A DNA stretch of 32,095 nucleotides from NCBI GenBank assembly GCA_937899835.1, contig CALCCE010000158.1, positions 1-32,095 on the forward strand, given 5' to 3'. Shown one piece after another: positions 4,579-30,524 of this stretch (position 1 is its first letter; each line of letters starts with the position of its first letter). Position numbers and translations under genes: made by a program. Origin of the DNA: an uncultured Flavobacteriales bacterium (GTDB lineage: Bacteria; Bacteroidota; Bacteroidia; Flavobacteriales_G; Salibacteraceae). Under the pieces are notes generated by a model, which saw nothing but the letters and a program-made list of their open reading frames with translations, was not told where the DNA came from and ran no database searches.

Positions 4579-7038
4579 TTACCCCACTTTGCGCTTGGGT
4601 AGCGCCTGATCCGTGGCTTTGGGCCATTCCAATTTGAGGTTGAGGCTGCTGGCCAAGGCCAGAAATTCCTCTGATTTCGATTGACTTTCTTCGGAGAAAA
4701 GCTCCATTTCCCATTTTGGCAGCAACTGCTGGCTAAGGCGGAAAACCCGATTTTGTACTCTTTCGGGGTTAAAATCGATTTCCATTTCGCGGATCAGCTC
4801 CAATTGCGCGTTGAGTTTTTGCAAAAGCTTGAGGGGGGCCTTGTCTTCCGGCAAACGATCGAGCCAGTTCACCAGGTGTTGGGCCACGGAAACCGCCATG
4901 GTGTCTATGTCAACATTTACTTGCCAGTGCCGCACCTCCCGCGCCAGTTGCCGCAGTCGCCGGTTGTTGAGCGATTGTGCCGAAAAGAAGTGCGAAAGCT
5001 CCTTTTGCACCACCATTTCCAAGTTGCGTTGCAGGATAGGCGGAATCTGCAAATTCGATTCCCGCATCACATTCATCAAGTTGTAGTTGCGGTCGAAAAT
5101 CTTGCGGTAGGAGTTTTCGGCTTGCTGCACGTTCTTTTCCAGAATCTTATCCAACACCTTGATCTGTTCGTCTTTGAACATTTCGCGCATGGAGAAATTG
5201 GGCCCCGGAAAATACTCCTGCATGATTTGAATCACCTCTGAAAGGTGTGCCGAGTTGAAGGCCTTGCGCAGTTTCACTGCCATTTCCTGGAAATCATGAT
5301 CTGAGATTTTGCCGCTGGCCGAGCCAATGATGTGGTGTTGCCCGAGGTAAATAGCGGCAAATCGAAAGCGCTTTTCCGATAAAGTAATCTGCGAATAGAT
5401 GGTGGTGCTTCCGATGGTCATCCGTTGCAAACCAGCTTCCAGGCGCTCAAAATAGTCGCTTTCGGCATTATAGCTCAAGATATCGATGTTTTCGGGCTCT
5501 TCGGAAAACAGGGAAGTAACGGCAAAATGCATTCCCACATTGAACAGGCGCAAGCGTGCCGGTTGCACGTGCTTTTCATAAATCACCGCTCCATTTTGAA
5601 GCTCGGGCAGGTTGCTTGGAGCGTTGCGCAATTGTGCCACGAAATCGGCTTCCAGCTTGCGGTCCGATTCCCGTTCGGCCAATTGAATGGCGCGGTTGGC
5701 ATATTGCAGAATTTGGGTGGTTTCAATGCCCGAGACCTCATCGAAAAACCAGCCGCAACTGGTATACATCAACAACGCCTGGCGTTGCATTTCCAGCAGG
5801 CGAATAACGTGGGTGCGTTGATTTTTCCGGGGTGCTTTTTTGAATCGGGTTTTGAAAAAGCATTCTACACTTTCGTGAGAGCGATCTTGAATGACCTCCA
5901 GGTAATCGTTGCGCAGTACCCACGGGTTATCCGTAAAGGCGGCAATTTCTTCCTCGTAAATCGGTATCAATTGATCGCGCAACCAGTCGAGGGCTTGCCG
6001 CAGGGGCGCCCGCCATTCCTGCGTCCAATTGGGGCGCCCGCCCGTGTTGCAGCCGCAGTTGTTGCGCCAACGCTCCACGCCATGGGCACAGCTCCAGGAG
6101 CTGTATTCAAAAATTTCCACTTCCCACTCGGGCGGACACAACTCCAAATATTGGCTGTAGTTGGTAAGCCGGGCCAGTTGGTTTTCTTCGATGTGTCGGA
6201 TGCAGTAAGCCAGGGCCATTTCCCCGTGCCGGTGGTGGTGGCCATAACTCTCTCCATCGGTGGCAATGTGCACCAGTTGTGGGTGGTGGTTTTTATCATC
6301 AAAACCTTGCATCAAGGCATTGGCAAACTGTTTACCGTCTTTCAGCAGGCCGTTAAAAGCCACACTTTGACTGATGGGGCCATCGTAGAAAAACAAGGTG
6401 ATCGATTTGCCGTTGGGCAGCTGGCACCGGTAGGGACGCCTTGGGTCGACACCCGGATGCCAGTGCGCCTCGTGCCTCGCCTTGCTGCGCATGGCTTGTG
6501 ACGGAGCCAGCAACGTATATTGAACACCATGGTTTACCAGCAATTCTAAGGTCTCCAAGTCTACCGCGGTTTCGGCCAACCACATGCCCTCTGCCTTGCG
6601 GCCAAAGCGCTTCTCAAAATCTTGTAGTCCCCAAATGATCTGGGTTTCCTTATCACGGCGGTTGGCCAGGGGCATAATGATGTGGTTATACACTTGTGCC
6701 ATGGCCGAACCATGTCCGCCAAAATATTCCTGACTCAATCGATCGGCCTCAATGATCTTACTGTAGTAATACGGGTTGTGCTTTTCCATCCACGACAGCA
6801 GGGTAGGACCAAAGTTGAAGCTCATCTTGGCATAGTTGTTCACAATGTCGATGATGCGGTGATCTTCGTCCAGCACCCGGGCTGCCCCATTGGGGCCGTA
6901 GCACTCCGCAGTAATGCGGTCGTTCCAATCGTGGAAAGGTGCTGCCGACTCCTGAATTTCAATTTCTTCCAGCCATGCGTTTTCGCGTGGTGGTTGGTAA
7001 AAGTGCCCGTGGATACAGAGGTAACGCGGTTGACTCAT
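4579..7038 (-). CDS. GH57 family alpha-glucan hydrolase/transferase, DUF3536 type
   Basis: The 819-residue cytoplasmic enzyme has no signal peptide. The N-terminus HGHFYQPPREN (10-20) is the GH57 opening motif. The probable nucleophile is E156 in GMWLAETAVD, matching the WLPE-type motif of GH57. The probable acid/base is D261 in TDGESYGHHH. A long C-terminal part with the DUF3536 character follows. The family acts on alpha-1,4 or alpha-1,6 glucans, as amylase, amylopullulanase or branching-type transferase; which one cannot be read from sequence. It is the last gene of the operon, starting 10 nt after the glgB stop, so it probably trims or remodels the polymer made by GlgE and GlgB. The length is usual for this subfamily. 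Confidence 0.85.
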   Translation of the reverse strand: MSQPRYLCIHGHFYQPPRENAWLEEIEIQESAAPFHDWNDRITAECYGPNGAARVLDEDHRIIDIVNNYAKMSFNFGPTLLSWMEKHNPYYYSKIIEADRLSQEYFGGHGSAMAQVYNHIIMPLANRRDKETQIIWGLQDFEKRFGRKAEGMWLAETAVDLETLELLVNHGVQYTLLAPSQAMRSKARHEAHWHPGVDPRRPYRCQLPNGKSITLFFYDGPISQSVAFNGLLKDGKQFANALMQGFDDKNHHPQLVHIATDGESYGHHHRHGEMALAYCIRHIEENQLARLTNYSQYLELCPPEWEVEIFEYSSWSCAHGVERWRNNCGCNTGGRPNWTQEWRAPLRQALDWLRDQLIPIYEEEIAAFTDNPWVLRNDYLEVIQDRSHESVECFFKTRFKKAPRKNQRTHVIRLLEMQRQALLMYTSCGWFFDEVSGIETTQILQYANRAIQLAERESDRKLEADFVAQLRNAPSNLPELQNGAVIYEKHVQPARLRLFNVGMHFAVTSLFSEEPENIDILSYNAESDYFERLEAGLQRMTIGSTTIYSQITLSEKRFRFAAIYLGQHHIIGSASGKISDHDFQEMAVKLRKAFNSAHLSEVIQIMQEYFPGPNFSMREMFKDEQIKVLDKILEKNVQQAENSYRKIFDRNYNLMNVMRESNLQIPPILQRNLEMVVQKELSHFFSAQSLNNRRLRQLAREVRHWQVNVDIDTMAVSVAQHLVNWLDRLPEDKAPLKLLQKLNAQLELIREMEIDFNPERVQNRVFRLSQQLLPKWEMELFSEESQSKSEEFLALASSLNLKLEWPKATDQALPKRKVG

Positions 7039-7048
7039 GCAAAAAGGT

Positions 7049-8992
7049 CTAAGCTTCGGGTTTTAACACAATCATGGCCAGTGGGGGCAAGGTAAGCTCC
7101 AGGGAGTACTCCCGACCGTGGCTCGTCTCGGCTTTGGGTTGGAAGGTGCGCTTTTTCAGCGCTCCACTGCCCCAGTAGTTTTTGTGATCGGTGTTGAGCA
7201 CCAGTTGCCATTTGCTATTGCCCGGAACTCCTAAGCGGTAGTTTTCACGCACCACCGGAGTAAAGTTGCACACGACCAACAAAGGAGCCGTTCCCGGGTG
7301 ACCTTTGCGCAAGTAGGCAATTACCGAGTTGCTGTGGTCGGCATAATCGATCCATTCAAAGCCGGATGCATCGAACGCCAGATCGCTAAAAGCTTGCTCT
7401 TTCCGGTACATCTTGTTCAGCTCCCGCACCAGTTGTTGCACGCCTTTGTGCGGCTCAAATTCGAGCAAGTGCCAGTCCAGGCTTCCATCGTGGTTCCACT
7501 CCGAAGTTTGGCCAAATTCTCCGCCCATAAAGAGCAACTTGGTGCCAGGATGCGTAAACATATATCCGTACAAGAGGCGCAGGTTGGCAAACCGCTGCCA
7601 TTCATCGCCCGGCATCCGGTCGATGAGCGGTCCCTTGCCGTGCACCACCTCATCGTGCGAAAGCGGAAGCATGAAGTTTTCCGTAAAGGCGTAGGTCATG
7701 CTAAAGGTGATGTCGTTTTGGTGGTATTGGCGGTAGAACGGATCTTTTTTAAAGTATTCCAATGTGTCGTGCATCCAGCCCATCATCCACTTTTGCCCGA
7801 AGCCCAAGCCACCCAAATAAGTGGGCCGGCTCACCCCCGGCCATGCGGTAGATTCTTCGGCAATGGTTTGTACCCCTGGAAAAGCCCCATACACGGCTTC
7901 GTTCATTTCTTTGAGCAGCGAGATGGCCTCTAGATTTTCGCGACCGCCGTGTCGGTTGGGCACCCATTCGCCCGCTTTGCGCGAATAGTCGAGGTAGAGC
8001 ATAGAAGCTACTGCGTCTACCCGCAAGCCATCGGCATGAAATTGATCGACCCAAAACACCGCGTTGCTGATGAGGAAAGACCGTACTTCGTTGCGGCCAT
8101 AATTGAAAATGCAGCTTTTCCAATCCGGGTGAAAGCCCAGGCGTGGGTCAGCGTGTTCGTAGAGGTGAGTACCATCAAATAGGGCTAAACCGTGTGCATC
8201 TTCGGGAAAATGGCTGGGCACCCAATCCAATATCACCCCAATCTTAGCCTTGTGGCACGCATCGATGAGGGCCTTTAACTCATCGGGGTTTCCATAGCGG
8301 GAAGTAGGAGCAAAGTAGCCCGTAAGCTGGTAGCCCCACGAACCGTAGAAAGGATGCTCCATCACCGGCAAAAATTCCACGTGGGTGAAGCCCATGTCCG
8401 AAACATACGCTACCAACTCCTCCGCCAGTTCTGCATAACTCAGCGAACGCTGGTCTTCTTCCATTTTTCTGCGCCAGGAGCCCAAGTGCAGCTCATACAC
8501 CGAAAAAGGATGGTCGAGTGCCTGCTGTTCGGCCCGTTGGGCCATCCAGGTTTTGTCCTTCCATTTGTAGGAACTCTCCCAAATCACTGAAGCTGTTCGG
8601 GGCGGTTCTTCCCATTGAAAACCAAAGGGATCGCCTTTTTCCAGTATTTGACCACCATCCGACGTATGGATAAGGTACTTGTAGGCGTGGCCTGCTTTGG
8701 CACCCGGTACAAATCCTTCCCAAATGCCAGAGCTGTCCCAGCGCACATACAGCGGGTGCGACTCCTTGTTCCAACCGTTGAAATCGCCCATTACGTGTAC
8801 CTGCTGTGCATTGGGCGCCCAGACTGCAAAGTAGGTACCCTTGGTGCCTTCCACCTTCATGGGGTGGGCGCCCATTTTTTCGTAGAGCCGAAAATGCTTT
8901 CCCGACCGAAAAAGTTCAATGTCGAAATCGGTGAGTTCGCTGTGCGCTACCACCGTAGGCAGTACCGGTTTTTTCTTTTTGATTTTCGCCAT
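7049..8992 (-). CDS. glgB: 1,4-alpha-glucan branching enzyme (GH13)
   Basis: The 647-residue enzyme makes alpha-1,6 branches by cutting and transferring alpha-1,4 chains. The N-terminal carbohydrate-binding-like domain (about 45-135) contains the VWAPNAQQVHVMGDFNGW motif. The GH13 barrel follows, with the nucleophile D326 in GLRVDAV, the acid/base near E379 in AEEST and the third carboxylate D447 in LSHDEVVHGKG. The block RRENLEAI-type (here GRENLEAISLLKEMN) and the motif GVSRPTYLGG are typical of GlgB. It is shorter than the E. coli enzyme because it lacks the extra N1 domain. The Lys-rich N-terminus (AKIKKKK) is unusual but probably only charged. Third gene of the glgE operon, 16 nt downstream of the maltokinase gene. 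Confidence 0.95.
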   Translation of the reverse strand: MAKIKKKKPVLPTVVAHSELTDFDIELFRSGKHFRLYEKMGAHPMKVEGTKGTYFAVWAPNAQQVHVMGDFNGWNKESHPLYVRWDSSGIWEGFVPGAKAGHAYKYLIHTSDGGQILEKGDPFGFQWEEPPRTASVIWESSYKWKDKTWMAQRAEQQALDHPFSVYELHLGSWRRKMEEDQRSLSYAELAEELVAYVSDMGFTHVEFLPVMEHPFYGSWGYQLTGYFAPTSRYGNPDELKALIDACHKAKIGVILDWVPSHFPEDAHGLALFDGTHLYEHADPRLGFHPDWKSCIFNYGRNEVRSFLISNAVFWVDQFHADGLRVDAVASMLYLDYSRKAGEWVPNRHGGRENLEAISLLKEMNEAVYGAFPGVQTIAEESTAWPGVSRPTYLGGLGFGQKWMMGWMHDTLEYFKKDPFYRQYHQNDITFSMTYAFTENFMLPLSHDEVVHGKGPLIDRMPGDEWQRFANLRLLYGYMFTHPGTKLLFMGGEFGQTSEWNHDGSLDWHLLEFEPHKGVQQLVRELNKMYRKEQAFSDLAFDASGFEWIDYADHSNSVIAYLRKGHPGTAPLLVVCNFTPVVRENYRLGVPGNSKWQLVLNTDHKNYWGSGALKKRTFQPKAETSHGREYSLELTLPPLAMIVLKPEA

Positions 8993-9008
8993 TTTCGTTA
9001 CAGTTGAA

Positions 9009-10640
9009 TCAAGAATCGAGCATCCGCATGATGCCCATGAGTGGAATCACCACCCATTTGGGTCGGGCGTTGAGTTCGTAGCCCATTTCGTAAATGGCCT
9101 TCTCCAACATGTGATAAGTGAGCAAATAGTGAATTTCGTTGCTATAGCCAATATCCAGGCCGTTGGCCATGGCGGTTTTGATGTAGGTGTGCAAAAACAC
9201 CGAAGAAATGAAATTGTAGTAATTCTCTCCGGTATCGAACAACACCTCTTGGGTAAAGCCTAAACCTTCACCGTGGTTGAAAATGTTGGCATAGATGGCA
9301 TAGTGAAACGAACGCAGCATGCCCGCCACATCTTTGATGGGCGGCTGCTTGATCTTGCGGTCGCGAATGGTACTTTCTGGTTCCCCTTCAAAATCGAGGA
9401 TAAAAAAGTCGTCTTCGTTCACCAATACCTGCCCCAGGTGAAAATCTCCGTGGATGCGGATCCGCTTGCTGTTCAGCTTGCCATCGTCAAAAGCCAGGAT
9501 GTAGTTTTTGATCTCATTTTTCTGTTCCAGAAAACGTTCGGCATATACCTTGGGCAAATCTTCTAGTTTGTCTAAGCTTTGCTCGGCCAGATGGTAGCGC
9601 TGGTCGAATTGATAGTTCAGTCGGTTTTTGAGCCACACCGCATAATCGCCGTTGAACCCTTCCGGATGAAAATGGCGGTCGTATTTGTCAGAAGAAAGAC
9701 CAATGTGCATCTGAGCCGTACGCCGGGCCAGGTTTTGCACCCCTACCAAGGCGTCCCGCCCGATCAGTTCGATCATTTGGGGCCGAATTTTCGAGATGCG
9801 CAAAGGCCGGTGGCGACCGGTGCGTTGCAAGCTGCTGGGGTCGAGTCCCGAAGCTTTCACACGTTCGAAAAAAGCTTTAGAGTGGCCCAGGAAATAATCC
9901 CAGGCATTGTCTTCATGCTCCACCCGTTTTTGCATCAGTCCAATCGAGATATCGGGCAAAGCTTCGCGCTCCCAGTTGATGCTTCCGGCAAAAGCCGGTG
10001 AGTTTTTGAAAGCAGCACGTTCCGACAGAAAATGTGTGAGTTCCAAATCCGGGTTGGTTTCGCGAAATAACCGACGGTAGATCTTCAGGTAATATTCCTC
10101 GTTGAACACCACCGTGGTGTTGCTTTGATCAGCGTCCAAAAGGCGGGATTGTACCTCCATGTTGGTCACCTCTTCACGGAGCACTTTCCCCGATCGGAAA
10201 GCCAAAACACCGGGATCAAAAGGCACCTCAGCACTGGTATACAGTTGCCGAAACATCGTGTTGCGAAACGATGCCGAATACAGTGCATCCATCAACAAGC
10301 CCACCTCGTTTCCAATCTTGATTGGGGTAATGATGGCCGCATCGGGCACTTTGCCTGGGTCGCCATTGTAGTAGGATATGGGCAACAAATAGCGAGCTGT
10401 TTTGCTGGTGTAAAAAACCGTTTCGATGATGGTGATGTACACCTTTTTCTCTGGCGTGGGAAACTCCGTGAGGTATTCTAACCGGTAGTTTTTGATGCGG
10501 GAAGATTTACCTCCAAACCAGCGGCAATTGAGTAAGTAATTGGGGAAAACATCCCTCAAAAACCGCTCTACCAAGGGTTGATCTTCAAACAGATTGTCCC
10601 AAGACCGGTCGGTGACCAGCGTGTTCGCTTGTGGTTGCAT
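9009..10640 (-). CDS. mak: Maltokinase (Mak/Pep2-like)
   Basis: The 543-residue kinase phosphorylates maltose at C1 with ATP, giving maltose 1-phosphate, the donor for GlgE. The N-terminal cap domain carries CRWFGGK (39-45), which is characteristic of maltokinases. The kinase core carries the catalytic loop HGDFHLGQ (397-404, catalytic D399) and the metal-binding DFEGEP (416-421, D416), a fingerprint of this family within the aminoglycoside-phosphotransferase fold. It is longer than the actinobacterial enzyme. It is a stand-alone gene, not fused to a trehalose synthase (TreS), and no treS is present in this window. It starts 3 nt after the glgE stop, so the two are probably translationally coupled. 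Confidence 0.9.
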   Translation of the reverse strand: MQPQANTLVTDRSWDNLFEDQPLVERFLRDVFPNYLLNCRWFGGKSSRIKNYRLEYLTEFPTPEKKVYITIIETVFYTSKTARYLLPISYYNGDPGKVPDAAIITPIKIGNEVGLLMDALYSASFRNTMFRQLYTSAEVPFDPGVLAFRSGKVLREEVTNMEVQSRLLDADQSNTTVVFNEEYYLKIYRRLFRETNPDLELTHFLSERAAFKNSPAFAGSINWEREALPDISIGLMQKRVEHEDNAWDYFLGHSKAFFERVKASGLDPSSLQRTGRHRPLRISKIRPQMIELIGRDALVGVQNLARRTAQMHIGLSSDKYDRHFHPEGFNGDYAVWLKNRLNYQFDQRYHLAEQSLDKLEDLPKVYAERFLEQKNEIKNYILAFDDGKLNSKRIRIHGDFHLGQVLVNEDDFFILDFEGEPESTIRDRKIKQPPIKDVAGMLRSFHYAIYANIFNHGEGLGFTQEVLFDTGENYYNFISSVFLHTYIKTAMANGLDIGYSNEIHYLLTYHMLEKAIYEMGYELNARPKWVVIPLMGIMRMLDS

Positions 10641-10643
10641 GCT

Positions 10644-12605
10644 TTAGTTTTTGCTAATGCGGAAAAGGTGGAAGGGCAGCCGATAAGGGTTCAGCTCTAC
10701 ATAGTTCCACTCCTTGTTCCACTGGTAACTGTCGCCCGATACCAGATCGTGCATCACCAGGGTATCGCCCTCTTTGGCTCCTAGCGCGTCAAGTGGCAAT
10801 TGTACCCAGCCGCTTTGGGTATTGTGTGGATCGAGGTTGGCCACACACAGCAAGTGATTGCCGCTCTCCTGATCGGCTTTATAGTAGGCCAGCAGGTTGG
10901 GGTTCTCGATGGCGCACGCCTTAAAGTTGTTGGTGATGTGCAGGGCAGGATTTTCTTTTCGGGCCCGGTTGACCACCGAAATCACCTCTTTCAGTTTGTT
11001 GGTTTTGGTCCAATCCCAATGGTGCACCTCGTATTTCTCCGAATTCAGGTATTCCTCCTTGCCCGGCACCGCATCGTGCACAATTTGCTCAAACACCGGC
11101 CCGTAGATGCCGTAATTCGAACTCAATGTGGCCGCCAGAAAAAACCGGGTGAGGTAGATCGTTTCGTTACCTCCTTGTAAATGATACGGATTGATATCTG
11201 GAGTGTTGGGCCAGAAGTTGGGTCGGAAATAGTGTTGAGAAGGCGACTGCGTCAACTCTTCCATGTACTCAATCCACTCAGCCTTGGTGTTGCGCCATGT
11301 GAAGTAAGAATAGCTTTGTGTGAACCCTACCTTGGCCAATTGGTGCATCACCCGAGGCCGGGTAAACGCCTCCGACAGGAACAACACATCGGGGTATTGT
11401 TTTTTCACTTCGGCAATTACCCATTCCCAAAACACAAACGATTTGGTGTGGGGATTGTCTACCCGAAATACCTGTATTCCTTGTTCGATCCAGTAGATCA
11501 AAATGCTTTTCAATTCGTCCCAAAGCGATTTCCAGGCTTCCGTTTCGAAGTTGATGGGCAAAATGTCCTGGTATTTTTTAGGCGGGTTTTCCGCATACTG
11601 CACGCTGCCATCCGGCCGCCAGCGAAACCACTCCGGGTGCGCTTTCACGTAAGGGTGGTTGGGCGAACATTGCAAGGCATAGTCCATGGCAATCTCAATG
11701 CCGTGGTCTTTGGCCGTTTTGATCAGGCGCTTAAAATCTTTTAACGTGCCCAACTCCGGATGCAAGTCTTTGTGGCCGCCTTCCGCAGCACCGATGGCCC
11801 AGGGGGAACCCGGCTCGCCCGGTTCAGCTGTGGTAGCGTTGTTGCGCCCCTTGCGGTGGTCTACGCCAATGGGATGTACCGGTGGAAAATAAAGCGTATC
11901 GAAACCCATCTTGGCCACTCGGGGGATAAGGGCTTCACACTCTTTGAAAGTACCGTGTTGGCCCGGTTCGGAAGCGCTGGACCGTGGAAAGAACTCGTAC
12001 CAGGAACTGAAACGTGCTTTGGCGCGGTCGACATAAATTTCGAGTGTGTGGGCGTAGGTGGTGCTGTTGTCCGTGTAAGGGTACTTGCGAAACAATTGGG
12101 TCAACGCCTCAGAAAGTGCATTTTGCACCGCTTTTTTATAGAGAGTTTCGTTTTCGAATTGCGCGATCCAGGAGCTTACTTTGGCCTTTTCGGTTTTGTT
12201 TCCTGCCTTGGCAATGCGTTGCAAATACTGCACCCCGTCCAGTAGTTCCGAGGTGACCTGCTGACCGTCCTCTACTTTGCGTCCCAATTCATATTGCCAG
12301 TTGAGCGCATGGTCTACCCAACCCTCCAGGCGGTATTGGTAAACGCCCTGCTTTTCCAGCAGGATAGAGGCGCTCCAACGGTCGTTGGTGAGCGCTTTGA
12401 AATAGGTGGATTGCCACTTGCGTTGGCGTTCGTGGCGGTAGAAAAGCCGGGCCGCTACCAGGGTATGTCCATCGGCATAGATATCGGCTTCAATGGCTAT
12501 ACGTTCGCCCACCACACCTTTGGCACGGTATCGTCCCCCGTCGATTTCGGGAGAAACAGATGCGATTATAACTCGGTTTTGAGGTTTCATGTCTTGAGGT
12601 TCCAA
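10644..12605 (-). CDS. glgE: Alpha-1,4-glucan:maltose-1-phosphate maltosyltransferase (GH13)
   Basis: The 653-residue enzyme extends alpha-1,4 glucans by two glucose units from maltose 1-phosphate, releasing phosphate. An N-terminal beta-rich domain (about 10-130) and a helical insertion precede the barrel. The nucleophile is D383 in FRVDNPHTK, a GlgE signature, and the acid/base is E412 in LSEAF. PPVHPIG and the RKGRNN region around 240-256 also match GlgE. It is the first gene of the - strand operon glgE-mak-glgB-GH57. Two starts are possible, at 12605 and 12590, within a short direct repeat (ATGGAACCTCAA / ATGAAACCTCAA); the first is used here. Just upstream lie a weak -7 element and a perfect palindrome. 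Confidence 0.93.
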   Translation of the reverse strand: MEPQDMKPQNRVIIASVSPEIDGGRYRAKGVVGERIAIEADIYADGHTLVAARLFYRHERQRKWQSTYFKALTNDRWSASILLEKQGVYQYRLEGWVDHALNWQYELGRKVEDGQQVTSELLDGVQYLQRIAKAGNKTEKAKVSSWIAQFENETLYKKAVQNALSEALTQLFRKYPYTDNSTTYAHTLEIYVDRAKARFSSWYEFFPRSSASEPGQHGTFKECEALIPRVAKMGFDTLYFPPVHPIGVDHRKGRNNATTAEPGEPGSPWAIGAAEGGHKDLHPELGTLKDFKRLIKTAKDHGIEIAMDYALQCSPNHPYVKAHPEWFRWRPDGSVQYAENPPKKYQDILPINFETEAWKSLWDELKSILIYWIEQGIQVFRVDNPHTKSFVFWEWVIAEVKKQYPDVLFLSEAFTRPRVMHQLAKVGFTQSYSYFTWRNTKAEWIEYMEELTQSPSQHYFRPNFWPNTPDINPYHLQGGNETIYLTRFFLAATLSSNYGIYGPVFEQIVHDAVPGKEEYLNSEKYEVHHWDWTKTNKLKEVISVVNRARKENPALHITNNFKACAIENPNLLAYYKADQESGNHLLCVANLDPHNTQSGWVQLPLDALGAKEGDTLVMHDLVSGDSYQWNKEWNYVELNPYRLPFHLFRISKN

Positions 12606-14156: not shown

Positions 14157-16577
14157 ATGAATATGCGGAAATTGCAAAGGATAGTGATCCCATTGGCGTT
14201 GGTATTTGCCCTGTGTGCCAACCCGTGGATAAGAAAGGTGAATGGGCAAGGGAGGGCAGATTCTTTGGAAAAAGCATTGCTCCGATTGCCAGAGAAAGCA
14301 GCTTTGCGGGAGGTGTTGCAATTGGACCGCGACCGAAAGTTGCCCGGTGCACTCCTGGTGCGCTTTGCTGCCAAAATGGAAGTCCACATTTCCGAATTTG
14401 CTCCCGGTGAAGAACGAGGGGCTGCCTGGGTTTTTGTAGGAAAATCGGCACAAACCCAAGGCCAATACGAGGCCTCCAATGTATTGATGGCCAATGCGCT
14501 CGAACAGTTCAAAATTGGCGCCAGGTCTATCCAGATTATCGACTGCTACCTTCTCATTGGGGCCAATCATTATTACCTCAACCAGTTGGAATCGGCAGAG
14601 GCCAATTTTAAAAAGGCACTGTCGCAAAGTAAAATTGTGGCCGATCGCCAGGCCGAATCTGCCATTTTGAAAAACATTGGAGTCTTGCAAATTGAGCAGC
14701 GCAAGTGGAAGGAGGCGGAGCAAAACCTGCGGGAGGCCATGGCGGTAGAGGATGAGTTGGGAAATTTGAAAGATGTAGCTGGCTCTCGGGTCAATCTTGG
14801 TCTGTTGGCTTACCGTCAGGAAGATTTTTCTGGCAGTTTGGTGCATTACAACGAAGCGTTGACCCTTTATCGGCAATTGGAGGAGCTTGGGTTAGAAGCG
14901 CGCACCCAGCTCAACCTGGGCATTTCTTATTTCAAGCTGGGGGATTTTGAAACCGCTCTAATACACCTCTATGAAGCCGTGCCATTGTTGCGCAACGATT
15001 CCTCTGAATTGCTCACTCTGGCCGAAGTGTACAGCACTATTGCCAACGTTTTCAACCGCATGGGGAAACCTGAAGACGCCCTTGAAAACCAGGAGAAAGC
15101 CTTGACGATCTTTCAAGAATTGGGCAACAAAAGTGAACTGCCGCACTTGATGAACAATATGGCCAACAGCTATCGGGATATGGGAAAGACCGCTACGGCC
15201 ATTAAGTACTACAACAAAGGTTTGGCACTTAGCCGGGAAATGGGCCGAAATTTTAGCGAAATGTTATCGCTCGACAATCTGGGTGAAACGTATGAGCAAG
15301 AGGGGGATTACCAACTGGCTGAGCAGCACTACTTAATGGCCTTAGCTATTTCCGATAGCTTGGGATTGCGCGAAAACATCGCCATTACGGGCAACGAATT
15401 GGCCCGACTCTATCAAAAAACGCAGAAGTTGGATCGGGCTTTTATGTACCTCGACCGTGCCCGTGACAGTGCCCTGGCGGGCAATCACCAGCGGGAGTTG
15501 ATGAAAAACCATGGGATTCGGGCCCTGTTGTTGGCCGATGAGCAAGACTACCAAAATTCAATGGTGTACCTCCGCAAGTCGGTGGCGCTAAAAGATAGCC
15601 TTACCGAGTTGGAGCAATCGAAAAGTATCAACGAACTGAACACCCGTTTTAAGGTAGACGAACTGAAACAGGCAGTGGGTTACCTCACTCCGTTGCGGGA
15701 AACCTTGCAAGAAAAACTCGATACGGTAAAAGAGGAAAACCGGTCGCTCGAAACGGCCTTTTACAGTGCCTCCATCATTGCTTTTCTGTTGCTCATTATT
15801 GCTAGTATGGCCTTCTGGCGCTACCGTGAGAAAAGGCGTTCGAACCAATTGCTGTTGCAAAAAAATGCACAAATCGAAGCCTTGATCAAGCAGCAGGCGA
15901 CCATCAATCGCGAGTTAGTGCACCGCTCCATCAACCACCTTTCGGTGCTCCAGTCGGCTTTAAGTAGCGATTCGCGGCAACTGGGGCCTGGTCCGGCCCA
16001 GCAAATTGTACGGGGCAATGCCTCGCGGGTGCGTGCCATGGCAGGTATTATCAAAACTTTGTTCATCAACAACCAAAAAGAGGACCAGCCCAACGACCTC
16101 ATTCCCATGGCACCCTACCTGGATCAACTGCTGACGGATTTGATCTCCAGCTTCGGGTGGTCACGGGAGAAGGTCAATTGCCAGGTAGTAGTCAATCAAG
16201 GCCTGCATTTGTCTTCGGATAAGGCAACAATCATCGGATTATTGGTCAACGAATCTGCCACCAATTCTTTTAAACACGGTTTTTTTGAGGGTATGGCCGA
16301 AAGGCCGGAACTGGAAGTCGTACTCAATTGGCAATCCGACGAAGCTGCCGAAGGCGGCAAACGCATCTTGGCTTTGGAAGTAATCGACAATGGAAGGGGG
16401 CTACCGGGAGCACTTTCGGAGGAAAAGACCGAAGGGGCAGGCGAACAGCGCCCACATTTTGGTTCTAAACTAATTCTGCAATTAACCGATCAACTCAAGG
16501 GACACCGTGAGCAACTGCCCGGCAAGGGACCCAATGGTAGGGGAATTGGCTATCGGTTCCTGTTTCCCATGAGTTAG
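14157..16577 (+). CDS. TPR-containing sensor histidine kinase (HisKA_2-like)
   Basis: The 806-residue membrane kinase has an N-terminal signal or anchor (about 8-22). A long array of tetratricopeptide-like helix pairs (about 95-480) is probably periplasmic. A coiled coil comes next and a single membrane segment at about 535-555 (IIAFLLLIIASMAFW). The cytoplasmic part has a second coiled coil and a HisKA_2-like dimerisation helix with the probable phospho-accepting H589 in LVHRSINHL. The ATPase domain has its N box at about 694-708 (LLVNESATNSFKHG), a G1 box in VIDNGRGLPG and a final GYRFLFPM strand. Start could instead be the ATG at 14163. It precedes a LytTR response regulator by 270 nt and is probably its partner. 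The signal sensed is unknown. Confidence 0.85.
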   Translation: MNMRKLQRIVIPLALVFALCANPWIRKVNGQGRADSLEKALLRLPEKAALREVLQLDRDRKLPGALLVRFAAKMEVHISEFAPGEERGAAWVFVGKSAQTQGQYEASNVLMANALEQFKIGARSIQIIDCYLLIGANHYYLNQLESAEANFKKALSQSKIVADRQAESAILKNIGVLQIEQRKWKEAEQNLREAMAVEDELGNLKDVAGSRVNLGLLAYRQEDFSGSLVHYNEALTLYRQLEELGLEARTQLNLGISYFKLGDFETALIHLYEAVPLLRNDSSELLTLAEVYSTIANVFNRMGKPEDALENQEKALTIFQELGNKSELPHLMNNMANSYRDMGKTATAIKYYNKGLALSREMGRNFSEMLSLDNLGETYEQEGDYQLAEQHYLMALAISDSLGLRENIAITGNELARLYQKTQKLDRAFMYLDRARDSALAGNHQRELMKNHGIRALLLADEQDYQNSMVYLRKSVALKDSLTELEQSKSINELNTRFKVDELKQAVGYLTPLRETLQEKLDTVKEENRSLETAFYSASIIAFLLLIIASMAFWRYREKRRSNQLLLQKNAQIEALIKQQATINRELVHRSINHLSVLQSALSSDSRQLGPGPAQQIVRGNASRVRAMAGIIKTLFINNQKEDQPNDLIPMAPYLDQLLTDLISSFGWSREKVNCQVVVNQGLHLSSDKATIIGLLVNESATNSFKHGFFEGMAERPELEVVLNWQSDEAAEGGKRILALEVIDNGRGLPGALSEEKTEGAGEQRPHFGSKLILQLTDQLKGHREQLPGKGPNGRGIGYRFLFPMS

Positions 16578-16685
16578 AACCCGTTTAGGATCTACTTTGG
16601 TGATTGGTTGAGGGGCCTTTGTTGCTGCACATTGACCAACTTCTAACTAGTAGAAATACGGGTGACTACCCGAGGTTTAGGCGGT

Positions 16686-16694
16686 AATTTGTAC
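16686..16694 (+). promoter_or_regulatory. AATTTGTAC box upstream of the first LytTR regulator
   Basis: This is the second occurrence of the nonamer, 153 nt before the ATG at 16848. Seven bases later a perfect hairpin follows (TCCCCT/AGGGGA, 16701-16716), which would be near the 5' end of a transcript started here. The function is inferred. Confidence 0.3.
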
Positions 16695-16847
16695 GAATTT
16701 TCCCCTATTTAGGGGAGTCAGGAAAAGATAGAAAGCCCGTATTTTAGACTCCGCTTCAACGGGAGTTGGCAATCAAAAGTGGCCGACCTTCATTAGAAGC
16801 CCGCGCAGCAGGAAGATAATCACAGGAAAGCACTGAATTACAAAACG

Positions 16848-17678
16848 ATGGAGCAGCAGGAAAAGATCAGCATTCTGGTGGTAGAAGATCAATTGTTGAT
16901 TGCCGATGAGTTGGTTGATATTTTAGAAATGGATTTGGGCTACCGGGTGAGTGCCGCGGTGACCAGTGGAGAAGCTGCGCTTGAGGCCGCAGCGGTTGAG
17001 TTGCCCGATCTGCTGTTGTTAGACATCCAGATTGAGGGCGAAATGGATGGTATTGCTACGGCAGAAGTGTTCAATCAACGCTACGATTTTGCCTTGCCCA
17101 TCATTTATGTTTCAACTCATTTTGATGCCAACACCCGCCAGCGGGCTTTGCAAACCCGGCCTGCCAACTACCTGGTGAAACCTTACCAGGACCACGAATT
17201 GGCTTTTGCCATTCAAATGGCGTTGCACAACAAAGAACAAGGCCGGGAAGTGGACCCGGAGCAGGGTCACCAACAGGGCCCTCCAAGCGGCCAGGTGGAG
17301 GAACTGCCCAATATACTCAACAACCGGATTTTTATTCGCCACGACAACCACCACGTAAAAATTGAATTGAGTGATGTACTCTGGTTGGAGGCCAATGGGG
17401 CTTATGTCAATTTTATAACCGCCCGCAAAAAGTTTACCCTTACCAACTGTAGCCTGGAAGACCTCGAATCGAAATTGCCGGGCAACCGCTTTGTGCGGGT
17501 ACACCGCAGTTTCATCATCAACCTCGACAAGGTGGTGGCGTTCAATTCCTACTCCATCACCATCGATGGTGCGGAGAAGGTACAAAACCTCAAAAATTCG
17601 ATGCAAAACCTCGATGGGCGTATCCCCATCACTGCACGGTACCGGGAGAATTTCGAGAAGCGTTTTCGCTTGATTTAG
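16848..17678 (+). CDS. LytTR-family response regulator
   Basis: The 276-residue protein has a receiver domain at about 6-125, with acidic-pocket E13/D14, phospho-acceptor D59 in LLLLDIQIEG, T90 in YVST and K111 in LVKPY. A polar linker rich in Gln, Glu and Pro covers 125-155. The DNA-binding LytTR domain follows (about 160-275), containing WLEANGAYVNF and the family motif FVRVHRSFIINLDKV. Phosphorylation of D59, probably by the upstream TPR kinase, would promote dimeric binding to direct repeats. The 270-nt upstream spacer suggests it has its own promoter. A stem-loop follows the gene. Confidence 0.9.
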   Translation: MEQQEKISILVVEDQLLIADELVDILEMDLGYRVSAAVTSGEAALEAAAVELPDLLLLDIQIEGEMDGIATAEVFNQRYDFALPIIYVSTHFDANTRQRALQTRPANYLVKPYQDHELAFAIQMALHNKEQGREVDPEQGHQQGPPSGQVEELPNILNNRIFIRHDNHHVKIELSDVLWLEANGAYVNFITARKKFTLTNCSLEDLESKLPGNRFVRVHRSFIINLDKVVAFNSYSITIDGAEKVQNLKNSMQNLDGRIPITARYRENFEKRFRLI

Positions 17679-20012: not shown

Positions 20013-20178
20013 TGGGTTTTTCCCGGATGTTGGGTGATTGCCGCCTGCTGGCTCAATGTTCGGGGAGCTATTGCTTCCCTGAAAAAAGATAAGTCGCTAC
20101 CTTCGTGCTGTTTTCGGGAGGTCAGTGCCTCTTTTTCCTGTTTCCATTTTTTGATATTCCTTTTGTTTGGGGAATTGT

Positions 20179-20187
20179 AATTTGTAC
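20179..20187 (+). promoter_or_regulatory. AATTTGTAC box directly before the LytS-like kinase
   Basis: This is the third occurrence of the nonamer, ending 3 nt before the ATG at 20191. If it is a promoter -7 region, the transcript would be almost leaderless, or else the true start is further downstream. Confidence 0.3.
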
Positions 20188-20190
20188 CAC

Positions 20191-21291
20191 ATGACGCTGC
20201 TGCGCAAATGGGATTGGAAATGGATTGGAATAGTGCTGGGCATTTGGACCCTCATTGCGCTGCTGATTTCTACCCAGCTTTATTTGTTTTTGCAAGACAG
20301 TGGTAACGCCTTGCCGTGGCCCAAAGTCTTCCTCATTCAGCTCATCGTTTGGTACCTCTGGGCGGCTTTCACGCCGGTGCTCTTGTGGCTGGGCCGATGG
20401 GTACGCATCGGTGGGCGACAATCCATTTTGGCCATTGGTTTCCATTTGGTATTCAGTGTAGCATGGGTGCTGGTGTTTCTGGTGGGCTACGTCATCGTGT
20501 TTCAATTCGTAGCGGAGGTTCCTTACTCTTGGCAGGGCTTTCAAGCCACTTACAAAACCTTTTTTCTACAACTGTTTCACTGGGACCTCATCATTTACTG
20601 GTCCATCCTGGGCATTGGTTATGCCTTCGACTATTACCGCCAAAACCGCGACCGGGAGTTACAAACCGTGCAGTTGGAGTCGCAATTGGTGCAGGCGCAG
20701 CTACAAGCCCTCAAAATGCAGTTGCAGCCCCACTTTTTGTTCAATACCCTCAACACCATTGCCGGCATGGTGCGGGTAGAAGAAAAGGCAGCGGCCATAC
20801 AGATGCTGGCCGGTTTGAGCGATTTGTTGCGGCAGGCCCTGGCCCGAAAAGATCAGCAGGAGGTGAGCCTGGAAGTAGAAATGGACTTTTTGCAGCGCTA
20901 CCTCAACATCGAAGCCATTCGTTTTCGCGACCAGCTTGCCCTGAAGGTGGAAGTTCCTGAGCACCTGCTTGCGGCCCGGGTGCCCAGCTTGTTGGTGCAA
21001 CCGTTGGTAGAAAATGCCTTTCATCATGGGCTGGCCAAAAAAATTGGAGCCGGTCGGTTGGAGATAACGGTGCAGCAACATGCTTCCGAACTGCGATTTC
21101 GTATTTTCAACGAAGGACCACCCTATCAGGAGCACCAAACCCAGGGGCAGGGAATTGGCTTGCAAACTACCCGCCAACGCTTGCAACAACACTTCCCCGA
21201 CCAGCACCAACTGCACATTGGCAACGTAGAGGGTGGGGTAGAGGTAATCGTAGCCATTCCGCTTAAGCTTGAACCAAAGGCCACTGCATAG
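20191..21291 (+). CDS. LytS-like sensor histidine kinase
   Basis: The 366-residue membrane kinase has four hydrophobic segments in residues 1-145 and no separate sensor domain. A coiled coil (about 148-175) follows. The His_kinase domain (PF06580 type) has the phospho-accepting H181 in LQPHFLFNTLN. The ATPase domain has LLVQPLVENAFHHGLAK (N box) and a G2-type GQGIGLQTTRQRL. An ATG at 20167 is also in frame, but the one at 20191 starts directly at the first membrane helix. The partner response regulator begins one base after its stop, so the two are certainly co-transcribed and probably coupled. Membrane-embedded kinases of this type often sense envelope state or small lipophilic signals; the input here is unknown. 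Confidence 0.92.
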   Translation: MTLLRKWDWKWIGIVLGIWTLIALLISTQLYLFLQDSGNALPWPKVFLIQLIVWYLWAAFTPVLLWLGRWVRIGGRQSILAIGFHLVFSVAWVLVFLVGYVIVFQFVAEVPYSWQGFQATYKTFFLQLFHWDLIIYWSILGIGYAFDYYRQNRDRELQTVQLESQLVQAQLQALKMQLQPHFLFNTLNTIAGMVRVEEKAAAIQMLAGLSDLLRQALARKDQQEVSLEVEMDFLQRYLNIEAIRFRDQLALKVEVPEHLLAARVPSLLVQPLVENAFHHGLAKKIGAGRLEITVQQHASELRFRIFNEGPPYQEHQTQGQGIGLQTTRQRLQQHFPDQHQLHIGNVEGGVEVIVAIPLKLEPKATA

Positions 21292-25311: not shown

Positions 25312-25980
25312 CTACTTCGCATACTTCTTCACCATTCTCCGAATGCCAATGGTACCCACTACCGTAGGAGCCACCCAAGGCACGATTGCCCAATAGCCGG
25401 GCAATACTTCCAAAAAGCGGTTAGCGCCAAATACAAAGAAGGCAGTATAGGCAGCTATGGCACTCACGAACATGCCCACCAGGTGATCTTTCAACCAATT
25501 AGAGCTCACCGGTGGCCGACGAATTTTTTTGATGAAATTGGGCACATCGGCAAGGCCAAGACCAGCGAAGATGAACATGAGAATGGCCGAACCATTTCCT
25601 CCCAGATAGATGCCATATATCACCATGCCGATAGCTGCGGCAATTACGAGGCCGTCTACTACGCGCTGCCAAAACAGAAACCGCATAGGGTTCTCTTTCT
25701 TGTAGTGTAACACCCGAATGCCATGCCAAAGGGGTTTGGCGGTAATGAGCGCGATGAACCCTAAAAATGCCCCGGTGATAGGTCGGCCTACGATCATGTT
25801 TCTTACACAAAGAATAGCAGCGGTCACCACTACCGTCCACATCAAGATCACATAAAACTTACCCGATAAGCGGTGGGCGGTTCCACCCTTTTTGGTGAAA
25901 GTAGGGACCCAGAATAGGACGATGCTGAGAAAGCCGGCACCGATGTGGAGGAAAAGTAAGGTTTGAAAGATGGGATGCAT
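25312..25980 (-). CDS. Seven-helix membrane protein, DUF2306-like
   Basis: The 222-residue integral membrane protein has hydrophobic segments at about 6-25, 42-62, 68-86, 106-127, 130-146, 166-186 and 192-213. HIGAGFLSIVLFWVP and the HRLSGKFYV loop resemble the DUF2306 group, whose function is not established. It is encoded downstream of a membrane-bound LytTR regulator. In the 143-nt spacer are four phased direct repeats and a perfect -7 element, so it is very probably controlled by a LytTR protein, most likely its neighbour. By analogy with LytTR regulatory systems it could be a target or a modulator of that regulator; this is inference. Confidence 0.75.
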   Translation of the reverse strand: MHPIFQTLLFLHIGAGFLSIVLFWVPTFTKKGGTAHRLSGKFYVILMWTVVVTAAILCVRNMIVGRPITGAFLGFIALITAKPLWHGIRVLHYKKENPMRFLFWQRVVDGLVIAAAIGMVIYGIYLGGNGSAILMFIFAGLGLADVPNFIKKIRRPPVSSNWLKDHLVGMFVSAIAAYTAFFVFGANRFLEVLPGYWAIVPWVAPTVVGTIGIRRMVKKYAK

Positions 25981-25996
25981 GACATTTGATTTTGAG

Positions 25997-26004
25997 CAAA
26001 CCTA
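25997..26004 (-). promoter_or_regulatory. Consensus -7 promoter element
   Basis: On the - strand this reads TAGGTTTG, an exact match to the Bacteroidota TAnnTTTG element. It lies 16 nt before the ATG of the DUF2306-like gene. The -33 region (about 26021-26027) has only a T-rich stretch, which would fit a promoter that needs an activator. Confidence 0.6.
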
Positions 26005-26034
26005 CCCCGAATAATCCCGGAAAAACAGGCGTAT

Positions 26035-26109
26035 GGGACGAATGACAAGCCTTTGTGACGACTGTCAAAGGCAAGTGATGAGTTGCAAAGTGCCAGGGAG
26101 GAGCGACAA
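26035..26109 (-). promoter_or_regulatory. Array of four phased direct repeats, candidate LytTR binding sites
   Basis: The + strand copies are GGGACGAATGACAA (26035-26048), GTGACGACTGTCAA (26055-26068), GTGATGAGTTGCAA (26075-26088) and GGGAGGAGCGACAA (26096-26109). Start-to-start distances are 20, 20 and 21 bp. All share GxGAxGA....CAA. LytTR proteins bind direct repeats spaced by about two helical turns, so position and phase fit. The nearest copy would lie roughly 45-58 bp upstream of the predicted transcription start. Confidence 0.7.
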
Positions 26110-26123
26110 AAAGGCCGTTTGGG

Positions 26124-27005
26124 TTAGGTGACCGGTCGTGCTTCCAGCAGTTCCCGAACGGCTGGGATATAAGACCTCGAAACCGGTACTTCAAAGTCGG
26201 GTACACCCTCTAACCGCAACTTCCAACCTTGGGCATTGCCGTTTACTTCGGCCACCGCATCGAGGTTCACCAGGTAGGACCGGTGACAGCGGACCATGGG
26301 TGTTTGCTCCCACTCACTTTCCAGTTTAGAGAGGGTGTTTCGCACCACTTCTTTTTGCAACGATGCAGCGCTTAGGTAGCTTATTGAAACGTAGTTCTGC
26401 ATGGCTTCGGCGAAGCGCAAGTCGGAGATGGGAATCTCCAACGGCTTTTCGTTGGTTGAAGCCAAAGCCACCTTGGCTACCGCTGGATTTTCAGCTAGGG
26501 CAGGAGTGAGGGCCAATTCCTGGGCTTGTTCCCGGTTTTTTCTACTGGCTTTCATTTGGTGGGTCATGCCCGCAAACACAATCGGAAAAATCCCCACCAA
26601 AACGGTGTTGCCCATCATCTCCAACAAAAACGACCAATTAAAAAACTGGTTCATCAGTAGCGAGAGGTAGCAAAAGTTGCCCAATGCAATCCAGGCCAGC
26701 AAAACCGAATTCTGGAAAATCCACTTGGCCAGAGTCCAGGAAGGCACATCGGTCCTAATCTTCAACACATAGTAGGTGAACAGATCAAAACACCAGCCGA
26801 ACAATACCGTTACTCCACCAAAACCCATGCATATCAGCAGACGTAGTCCATTTTCGTCGATATGGTGCAGGCCAAAAGGACGCAGGAAAAAGAGAAACAG
26901 GCTTACAAAAAGCCCAATGCCCAGCAAAGTACGCAGGTTTTTGCGCGGATGTTTTTGATCGGGAAAAGGTTCAGATAAGCTTCGAATCCAGGAGCGAGGC
27001 GCCAT
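26124..27005 (-). CDS. Membrane-anchored LytTR transcription regulator
   Basis: The 293-residue protein has no receiver domain. Four hydrophobic segments (about 28-46, 55-80, 94-117, 125-147) are followed by a charged linker (about 148-185) and a LytTR DNA-binding domain (about 190-290). That domain contains FAEAMQNYVSISY and the motif MVRCHRSYLVNLDAV. It is therefore a one-component membrane regulator. The gene is upstream of the DUF2306-like gene on the same strand. The repeat array starts 14 nt after its stop codon, so the downstream gene is the obvious target. A short palindrome (27060-27074) lies 54 nt upstream of its start. What it senses is unknown. Confidence 0.87.
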   Translation of the reverse strand: MAPRSWIRSLSEPFPDQKHPRKNLRTLLGIGLFVSLFLFFLRPFGLHHIDENGLRLLICMGFGGVTVLFGWCFDLFTYYVLKIRTDVPSWTLAKWIFQNSVLLAWIALGNFCYLSLLMNQFFNWSFLLEMMGNTVLVGIFPIVFAGMTHQMKASRKNREQAQELALTPALAENPAVAKVALASTNEKPLEIPISDLRFAEAMQNYVSISYLSAASLQKEVVRNTLSKLESEWEQTPMVRCHRSYLVNLDAVAEVNGNAQGWKLRLEGVPDFEVPVSRSYIPAVRELLEARPVT

Positions 27006-29786: not shown

Positions 29787-30524
29787 ATGAAAGTGCTGAT
29801 CGTTGATGACGAACCAGACGCCTTAGACAACCTGGAAATCATGCTTTCCGATTGGACCGAAGGGATCGAAGTGGTGGGACGCGCACAAGGAGTGGCTACT
29901 GGTGTCAAGAAATTTAGGGAAACCCAACCCGACATCATCTTTCTCGACATCGAGATGCCGGATGGAAACGGCTTCGAATTGTTGGCTCAACTGCCTACAG
30001 CTGGTTTTCATGTCATATTTGTGACTTCTCACGACCGCTACATGCTACGAGCCTTGCGCCTGGCAGCAATCGACTTTTTGCTCAAACCCATCAATCCGGT
30101 AGAACTGCAATCTGCGGTGCAGCGGGCGCAGCAGAAGCTCAATGAAAAAGACGAGCATACGAAACGGCAAGTGCTACAGGAAAACCTCAATGCAGATGAA
30201 CCTTCGCGATTGGTAGTGAGCGACAAAAACAACATTTACCTCATAGAAATAAGCGATTTATTGTATTGCAAGGGCGAAGGCAACTACACCACTTTTTACC
30301 TAAGGGAAGAATCCCCGGTGGTGATTTCCAAAACCTTGAAAACTTATGAGAAGCTTCTGCTCGACGAACATTTTTTTCGGGTACACAACTCTTACATTGT
30401 GAACCTCAAAGCCGTAAAACGCATCGAAAAAGGAACCTCTGATCGTCTGGTGATGCGCAACGGTGATAAAGTGCCCATTGCCACCCGCCGAAAATCGGAG
30501 GTGATTCAATTGTTGACACAGTGA
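29787..30524 (+). CDS. LytTR-family response regulator
   Basis: The 245-residue regulator has a receiver domain (1 to about 118) with D7/D8, phospho-acceptor D54 in IIFLDIEMPDGNGF, T in FVTSHDRYM and Lys in FLLKPINP. A charged linker follows. The LytTR domain (about 140-245) carries LLYCKGEGNYTTFYL and FFRVHNSYIVNLKAV. It is followed after 177 nt by a TPR membrane protein that is probably its kinase. The 177-nt spacer (30525-30701) shows no terminator with a T-run, so co-transcription is possible. The divergent T9SS gene is a potential target, not tested by any motif I can see. Confidence 0.92.
   Translation: MKVLIVDDEPDALDNLEIMLSDWTEGIEVVGRAQGVATGVKKFRETQPDIIFLDIEMPDGNGFELLAQLPTAGFHVIFVTSHDRYMLRALRLAAIDFLLKPINPVELQSAVQRAQQKLNEKDEHTKRQVLQENLNADEPSRLVVSDKNNIYLIEISDLLYCKGEGNYTTFYLREESPVVISKTLKTYEKLLLDEHFFRVHNSYIVNLKAVKRIEKGTSDRLVMRNGDKVPIATRRKSEVIQLLTQ

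Follow-up and report, generated by a model that had tools for sequence, protein, structure and literature searches.

A phased direct-repeat array as a candidate multi-site operator between a LytTR gene and a DUF2306-like gene in Bacteroidia

We observed an array of four phased direct repeats between a LytTR gene and a DUF2306-like gene in the window, which here means the whole 32,095-nucleotide stretch of DNA analysed. The array, its phasing and its conservation among relatives were observed directly, together with a fixed distance to the -7 promoter element and co-occurrence with one clade of LytTR proteins. The array is probably a multi-site operator for the adjacent, predicted membrane-anchored LytTR regulator, by which the DUF2306-like partner would be activated. 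Since many relatives in the class keep this layout, the array is most likely the site through which the LytTR protein activates its neighbour. It would give a concrete DNA code and a fixed promoter geometry for a membrane-anchored LytTR group found in many families of one class; among the literature matches listed, LytTR sites in this phylum were described for two Bacteroides operons only (PMC6193735).

Repeat array and promoter in the window

A spacer of 143 bp separates the LytTR gene (26124-27005, minus strand) from the DUF2306-like gene (25312-25980, minus strand). It contained four diverged copies of a 15-nt unit on the minus strand, which is the strand of both flanking genes. The promoter-distal copy 1 (TTTGTCGCTCCTCCC) occupied positions 26096-26110 and was followed by copy 2 (TTTGCAACTCATCAC, 26075-26089) at a step of 21 bp, copy 3 (TTTGACAGTCGTCAC, 26055-26069) at a step of 20 bp and the promoter-proximal copy 4 (CTTGTCATTCGTCCC, 26035-26049) at another 20 bp, the first bases on the minus strand being 26110, 26089, 26069 and 26049, respectively. 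The earlier note, which used the plus strand, had given the coordinates and the phasing (20, 20, 21) of these four direct repeats correctly.

When the whole window was searched without a motif at steps of 20 or 21, the best array of four 14-mers was the present one (start 26035, steps 20, 20, 21). Its score, 59 of 84 summed identities, was reached by none of 200 window shuffles (maximum 51). With a weight matrix built from other genomes only, the array scored 52.4; the maximum was 15.5 in 150 shuffles of the 32-kb strand and 11.1 for plus-strand sites in the window. The array scan detected no further phased array in the window. A plain repeat finder did not list the array as a direct-repeat family; its copies have diverged and its steps are not uniform. 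That divergence might suggest chance or low-complexity similarity, and in the spacer alone the best pair of 14-mers at steps of 19-22 was identical at 11 of 14 positions, a value reached by 1.3% of spacer shuffles. However, the whole-array test and the conservation across families described below make chance hardly credible as an explanation.

An exact TAnnTTTG -7 element (TAGGTTTG, 25997-26004, minus strand) was found 30 bp past the end of copy 4, or 45 nt counted from its start. The earlier observation that the repeats lie behind a LytTR gene and before an exact -7 element was confirmed. A putative weak -33-like element, TGTT (26024-26027, minus strand), lies 19 bp before the -7 element. The last copy is located upstream of this -33 position, and the direct repeats lie on one DNA face with a period of about 20-22 bp; both are features of LytTR operators. 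The layout TGTT-19 bp-TAGGTTTG matches the TGTA-19 bp-TATCTTTG published for the LRS-like operons of Bacteroides (PMC6193735 Table 3).

Genes flanking the array

The LytTR gene encodes a protein of 293 aa with four predicted long helices followed by a LytTR DNA-binding domain. This domain (Pfam E 7.2e-18, residues 190-287) was the sole one above the Pfam cut-off, and no MHYT domain was found in the regulator by Pfam. In the AlphaFold model (pLDDT 83), the helices spanned residues 20-41, 52-80, 92-118 and 124-163, and the Foldseek matches of the model were the LytTR domain 3d6w, ComE 4cbv and AgrA 4xqj/3bs1, including AgrA-DNA structures. As predicted from the model, the protein of 26124-27005 would be anchored in the membrane via the four-helix domain.

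The gene at 25312-25980 encodes a membrane protein of 222 aa, the presumed target and partner, which is called DUF2306-like from the Pfam matches of its relatives. The window protein itself matched DUF2306 (PF10067) at E 1, with 10 bits against a gathering cut-off of 31.6, whereas six of the 11 aligned partner relatives matched PF10067 at E up to 0.1 (best 8.5e-10). Judged from these matches, the relatives can be assigned clearly, the window protein only weakly. One relative, in G028, was 55% identical to the window partner and had the same gene arrangement, and H12, H36 and H166 were invariant across the 11 aligned relatives. The partner model was all-helical (pLDDT 77), and no PDB fold matched it at E 0.001 (best 0.26).

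Conservation of the gene pair and the array

Within the same family, 12 of 35 genomes had a LytTR relative at E 1e-20 or better, and a DUF2306-like relative at E 1e-15 or better was present in 11 of 395 genomes drawn from the class. A LytTR gene lay directly upstream on the same strand at 11 of 13 loci, the window included (exceptions, L042 and L043). Further loci were obtained from three families (4 of 9, 4 of 13 and 127 of 200 genomes, the last being family f69), together with 40 stretches taken by place.

The spacers were compared by a motif-free self-match, whose shuffles ignore kinship. The 11 LytTR-DUF spacers gave peaks at lags of 20 (z 6.9), 40 (z 4.5) and 21 (z 3.3), and all other lags from 8 to 44 were between z -2.5 and 1.7; individual spacers were often not significant (p below 0.06 in 4 of 11). 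In f69, a mixed LytTR-adjacent group of 13 loci showed lags of 19 (z 5.5), 20 (6.7), 21 (3.6) and 40 (4.5). A second LytTR-adjacent group of 26 loci, mostly from genus g164 and strongly related, showed lags of 19 (z 7.5) and 20 (z 6.4), along with off-register peaks at 41 (z 8.8), 38 (5.2), 42 (5.0) and 29 (4.5). The 31 f69 promoters without an adjacent LytTR gene gave z 3.5 at 19, 2.5 at 20 and 2.8 at 40. By eye, a distal copy and the LytTR stop codon overlap in many of the loci L067-L092 (f69, mostly g164), for example TTTGTAAAACGTCCC, and a further CGTCCC-like word occurs in these loci only about 12 bp on, outside the 20-bp register.

Arrays were called in the promoters with a leave-one-out matrix, in which only the tested locus was removed from the training set; a call required at least two copies phased at steps of 19-22 and, over 200 shuffles, a p of 0.01 or less. 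The consensus of the fitted matrix was TTTGTCA[TA][TA]C[GA]TCCC. When a LytTR gene was present within 350 bp upstream, 46 of 48 DUF2306-like promoters contained an array (11/11 outside f69, and 23/24 and 12/13 in f69; misses, L075 and L115), versus 12 of 36 promoters with no LytTR gene within 350 bp (0/5 outside f69 and 12/31 in f69), a difference with a Fisher p of 4e-10 by a statistic that ignores relatedness. L065 and L066, which are the same places as L041 and L040, were excluded from these counts. The earlier note had made its proposal depend on conservation of the repeats before orthologous DUF2306-like genes, and this check, run here, found them conserved.

Because the training loci are the tested loci minus one, close relatives support each other in the leave-one-out scan. 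An earlier matrix from eight non-f69 loci, used with steps of 20-21, called arrays in 8 of 39 LytTR-adjacent f69 promoters and in 4 of 31 others; it under-called f69 because steps of 19 exist and the motif shifts at its centre from ATTC to AAAC. The leave-one-out matrix was trained with f69 loci and is less independent; hence, the motif-free tests and the set chosen by LytTR protein, described below, weigh more. Two pattern searches were also tried and rejected: an exact-pattern search of the own genome was too narrow and gave one match, and a search of 12 genomes with three mismatches and a fixed 20-bp step recovered the G027 spacer, with most others at the level of the reversed-pattern control.

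Among the 58 arrays, 34 had two copies, 4 had three and 20 had four, and the steps were 20 (52), 19 (40), 21 (7) and 22 (3) in a scan that permitted 19-22. The proposal of four sites, which holds for the window, thus applied to 20 of the 58 arrays and was not the rule. In 55 of the 58 arrays, the last copy began 43-46 nt before a TAnnTTTG element (5/6 or better). This element was exact (6/6) in 46 of them, with 35 at 45, 9 at 44 and one each at 43 and 46; three further 6/6 matches were found elsewhere in the range of 15-119 nt.

A weak -33 element is usual for activator-dependent promoters, and that of the window (TGTT) is weak. Along with this, the position of the array suggests activation rather than repression of the partner gene. 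Repression, in which the bound membrane LytTR protein would block the partner promoter until a signal releases it, is unlikely in our judgement, although CoxC, likewise membrane-anchored, represses via three LytTR repeats (PMC11347149) and the -7 elements are good, being 6/6 in the 46 arrays given above. The repeats of CoxC overlap the -35 box (PMC11347149), whereas the last copy here lies upstream of -33 and ends 30 bp short of the -7 element. Activation from sites upstream of -35 is reported for RcoM1 and for most LytTR regulators (PMC11347149).

The repeats are intergenic in a same-strand gene pair, and an imperfect inverted repeat is present, so that a function in RNA, as a leader or attenuator on read-through from the LytTR gene, was also considered. 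However, the conserved features are the direct repeats, the helical step and the distance to the promoter, and we regard a role in RNA as very improbable. The RNA-structure reading was rejected, as no consensus pair was predicted in an alignment of 25 array sequences. L033, L039, L093, L098 and L123, which were misaligned rows in an earlier alignment, were omitted from the later one.

Association of the array with the LytTR clade

We assembled a set of 63 loci (9 + 54) chosen by the LytTR protein and scanned 283 bp behind the LytTR stop codon. Motif-training loci, duplicates, known paralogs, L258 (LytTR tail not found) and G351:C41 were omitted from the set. Arrays were found in 21 of the 63 loci, from 13 families, and 14 of the 21 had a -7 element at 43-46. 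When a DUF2306-like neighbour was present within the stretch of about 1-1.5 kb behind the LytTR gene, 17 of 24 loci had an array, versus 4 of 39 without such a neighbour (Fisher p 1e-6); the exceptions were thus seven pairs without a called array and four partnerless LytTR genes with one. Therefore, the array accompanies the LytTR-DUF2306 pair and not LytTR relatives generally. The motif-free analysis of this set gave lags of 19, 20 and 21 at z 3.8, 4.3 and 3.4, respectively, with minor lags at 12 and 40 (z 2.7 each) and 24 (z 2.1).

A LytTR gene of the clade was present elsewhere in 12 of 13 f69 array genomes without an adjacent LytTR gene, versus 2 of 8 genomes lacking a called array before the DUF2306-like gene (G124 and G275; p 0.003), the genomes of this comparison being hand-picked. 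The 13 genomes comprised 11 from the leave-one-out scan and two, G426 and G447, by model R1 (described below) only, G447 weakly (E 0.028). G437, G444 and G495 stood outside the comparison, the latter two having LytTR and array in one locus. No LytTR of the clade was found in G433, which has an array and is 88% complete, and the clade LytTR gene of G438 has one internal stop. In G553, G442 and G445, the clade LytTR gene was 1.5-2.2 kb upstream of the array promoter. In the other nine array genomes, it was at least 16 kb off or on another contig and had no array behind it, and therefore the array remains with the target promoter.

Upstream of the LytTR start, the scan covered 53 of 55 loci (two being too short, and two loci occurring twice) and found no array of this motif. 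Seven of eight other LytTR loci of the own genome had no chain above 10.6, versus up to 15.8 in the shuffled window. The same values, 10.6 versus 15.8 in shuffles, applied to 11 distant LytTR loci (Aquimarina, Kordia, Parabacteroides and one further flavobacterium) obtained from the search with the LytTR protein and used as negative controls. The earlier suggestion of a binding code for a LytTR family can thus be retained for this clade (46/48) and not extended to LytTR proteins at large (none in 18 other loci).

Other targets of the array code

A sequence-only model of 25 array-promoter stretches, R1, was run on 29 genomes and gave a match at E 0.05 or better in 28 of them (36 matches). The best match was a DUF2306-like promoter or operon in 26 genomes, of which 16 were in the training set and 10 outside it. 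In the own genome, where 128 of 1040 first-pass candidates were scored, the single match was the window site (E 1.2e-13). For G462 and G379, R1 matched nothing but the promoter of a DUF2141 gene (PF09912, E 2e-26), which has its own two-copy array and an exact -7 element at 44-45. The order in G450 and G456 was LytTR, array, DUF2141 and DUF2306-like. In G444, array, DUF2141 and DUF2306-like followed in sequence, and a DnaJ-like gene (named by eye) separated the LytTR gene from the array. From the array code, targets can be predicted in genomes without annotation, namely DUF2306-like and DUF2141 genes, and these two families gain a regulatory context.

Four of the eight remaining R1 matches were behind LytTR genes (G357, G439, G444 and G426); that of G444 was a weak pair (p 0.015), and the array scan found nothing at that of G426. 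The other four had no convincing array, three being single sites and one a weak pair without a -7 element. At L193:849-3370 (G357:C1), a same-clade LytTR paralog is followed by a clear four-copy array, an exact TAGTTTTG at 45 and then an amidohydrolase gene. At L163:691-1583 (G439:C4), a response-regulator LytTR gene is followed by an array of two copies and by CACTTTTG, a near -7 element, at 44; the array overlaps a short ORF and precedes a 1-Cys peroxiredoxin gene.

The array of G439 indicates that the code may extend beyond the membrane-anchored clade, and accordingly another LytTR protein, such as a two-component response regulator, could bind the array, the adjacent LytTR protein being a mere neighbour. 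Two response-regulator LytTR genes are also present in the window (16848-17678 and 29787-30524). Against this, arrays track the clade both in cis (46/48) and by presence in the genome (12/13 vs 2/8), clade paralogs with other downstream genes also have arrays (L165, L173, L182, L183, L184 and L193), and the seven other LytTR loci of the own genome have none. We consider a different binder quite improbable; the co-occurrence suggests that the array is bound by the adjacent LytTR protein.

Comparison with described systems

Earlier work already describes direct repeats bound by LytTR proteins, operators of this family with three repeats and, in Bacteroides, LRS-like LytTR operons. In published LytTR sites, two direct repeats of 9-11 bp are separated by about 10-13 bp, and most of these sites lie upstream of -35 (PMC11347149, PMC4847170, PMC6193735). 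The earlier note had presented more than two half-sites as unusual; this could not be upheld as without precedent, since RcoM1 and CoxC use three (PMC11347149). No published description of the present array was found among the matches listed (LytTR with Bacteroidetes/Bacteroidota, Cytophagales, DUF2306, DUF2141 and more than two repeats), and among the matches listed for the motif letters only unrelated subjects appeared.

Of the systems described so far, the LRS-like operons of Bacteroides come closest. Those of B. thetaiotaomicron and B. ovatus share with the present system a LytTR regulator with multiple membrane segments, a membrane-protein partner and direct repeats with a period of about two turns just before a TAnnTTTG promoter (PMC6193735). 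Their repeats, however, are two of 11 bp with an 11-bp gap (TCCGGTATTCA / ACCGGAAATCA), and their partner, with an NfeD-like domain and DUF2154, is encoded upstream of the regulator (PMC6193735), whereas the unit here is near TTTGTCANNCGTCCC in up to four copies and the DUF2306-like partner is encoded downstream. The present system is set apart by its unit, copy number and partner and by an array placed before the partner. The LRS of S. mutans (HdrRM/BrsRM type) also has a LytTR regulator with a downstream membrane-protein gene and repeats before the promoter, and this gene order was found in the window and its relatives. It differs in that its regulators are soluble and its repeats precede the regulator operon, giving autoregulation (PMC6193735); in the window, four long N-terminal helices were modelled in the regulator, and no array of this motif was found before it.

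CoxC and RcoM1 are likewise LytTR one-component regulators with three direct repeats, those of CoxC at intervals of 18-21 bp, and CoxC is located in the membrane (PMC11347149). In contrast to the present system, their repeat is TTNNNGCN / TTCNNGCA, which the consensus above does not match, their sensor domain is MHYT or heme, and CoxC represses (PMC11347149). HigX of Caulobacter has a four-helix membrane domain fused to a LytTR domain, although the motif reported for it is an inverted repeat of 8 bp that is imperfect and has no spacer (PMC13384398). For YpdB of E. coli, a printed oligonucleotide contains two GGCATTTCAT direct repeats 21 bp apart, and its GCATTTCATTCC resembles CATTCGTCCC by eye; YpdB is, however, a two-component response regulator with two sites (PMC4847170).

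Proposed mechanism

By analogy, the array may operate like an LRS-like or one-component LytTR switch. The LytTR protein of 26124-27005, held in the membrane by its four-helix domain, would occupy the repeats with probably one DNA-binding domain per copy, the domains being placed on one DNA face about two helical turns apart (19-21 bp). The copy next to the promoter would set its bound domain against the weak -33 region, and with the domain at this position, the complex could recruit RNA polymerase to the TAnnTTTG promoter and turn the partner gene on. The published LytTR sites and the geometry here are consistent with an activator that fills phased half-sites and touches the polymerase at the weak -33. 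The copy number suggests cooperativity, and additional copies may confer higher affinity or a sharper response. By analogy with LRS, in which the membrane protein inhibits its regulator, a signal probably passes back from the partner to the regulator within the membrane. Taken together, conservation, co-occurrence with the clade and the fixed distance to the -7 element lend good support to the earlier idea of a LytTR operator upstream of a promoter.

A broader generalisation is tentative, our doubt somewhat exceeding our confidence. The system could represent a previously undescribed membrane one-component class in Bacteroidia (the class being judged from the promoters and the named relatives), in which a LytTR oligomer lies along two to four or more phased half-sites beside -33/-7 and the promoter is brought to the membrane. 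It would drive a DUF2306-like protein, in some lineages a DUF2141 protein, that senses or feeds back, with the copy number tuning the threshold. The array makes it testable how a membrane-fixed regulator reaches and uses several chromosomal sites.

Other genes in the window

Three consecutive plus-strand genes (333-1634, 1773-3122 and 3261-4517) contained a Peptidase_S74 (endosialidase chaperone) domain, and two of them showed a match to the type IX secretion tail below the cut-off; this row possibly encodes secreted fibre-like proteins. On the minus strand, the four-gene row at 4582-12605 is a GlgE-type alpha-glucan cluster, composed of GH57/DUF3536, an alpha-amylase with CBM48 (branching-enzyme-like), a maltokinase-like protein and a GlgE-like maltosyltransferase. 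Furthermore, two response-regulator LytTR genes, a TPR protein with HisKA_2 and a LytS-type kinase (His_kinase) were found on the plus strand at 14157-17675, 20167-21288 and 29787-30524.
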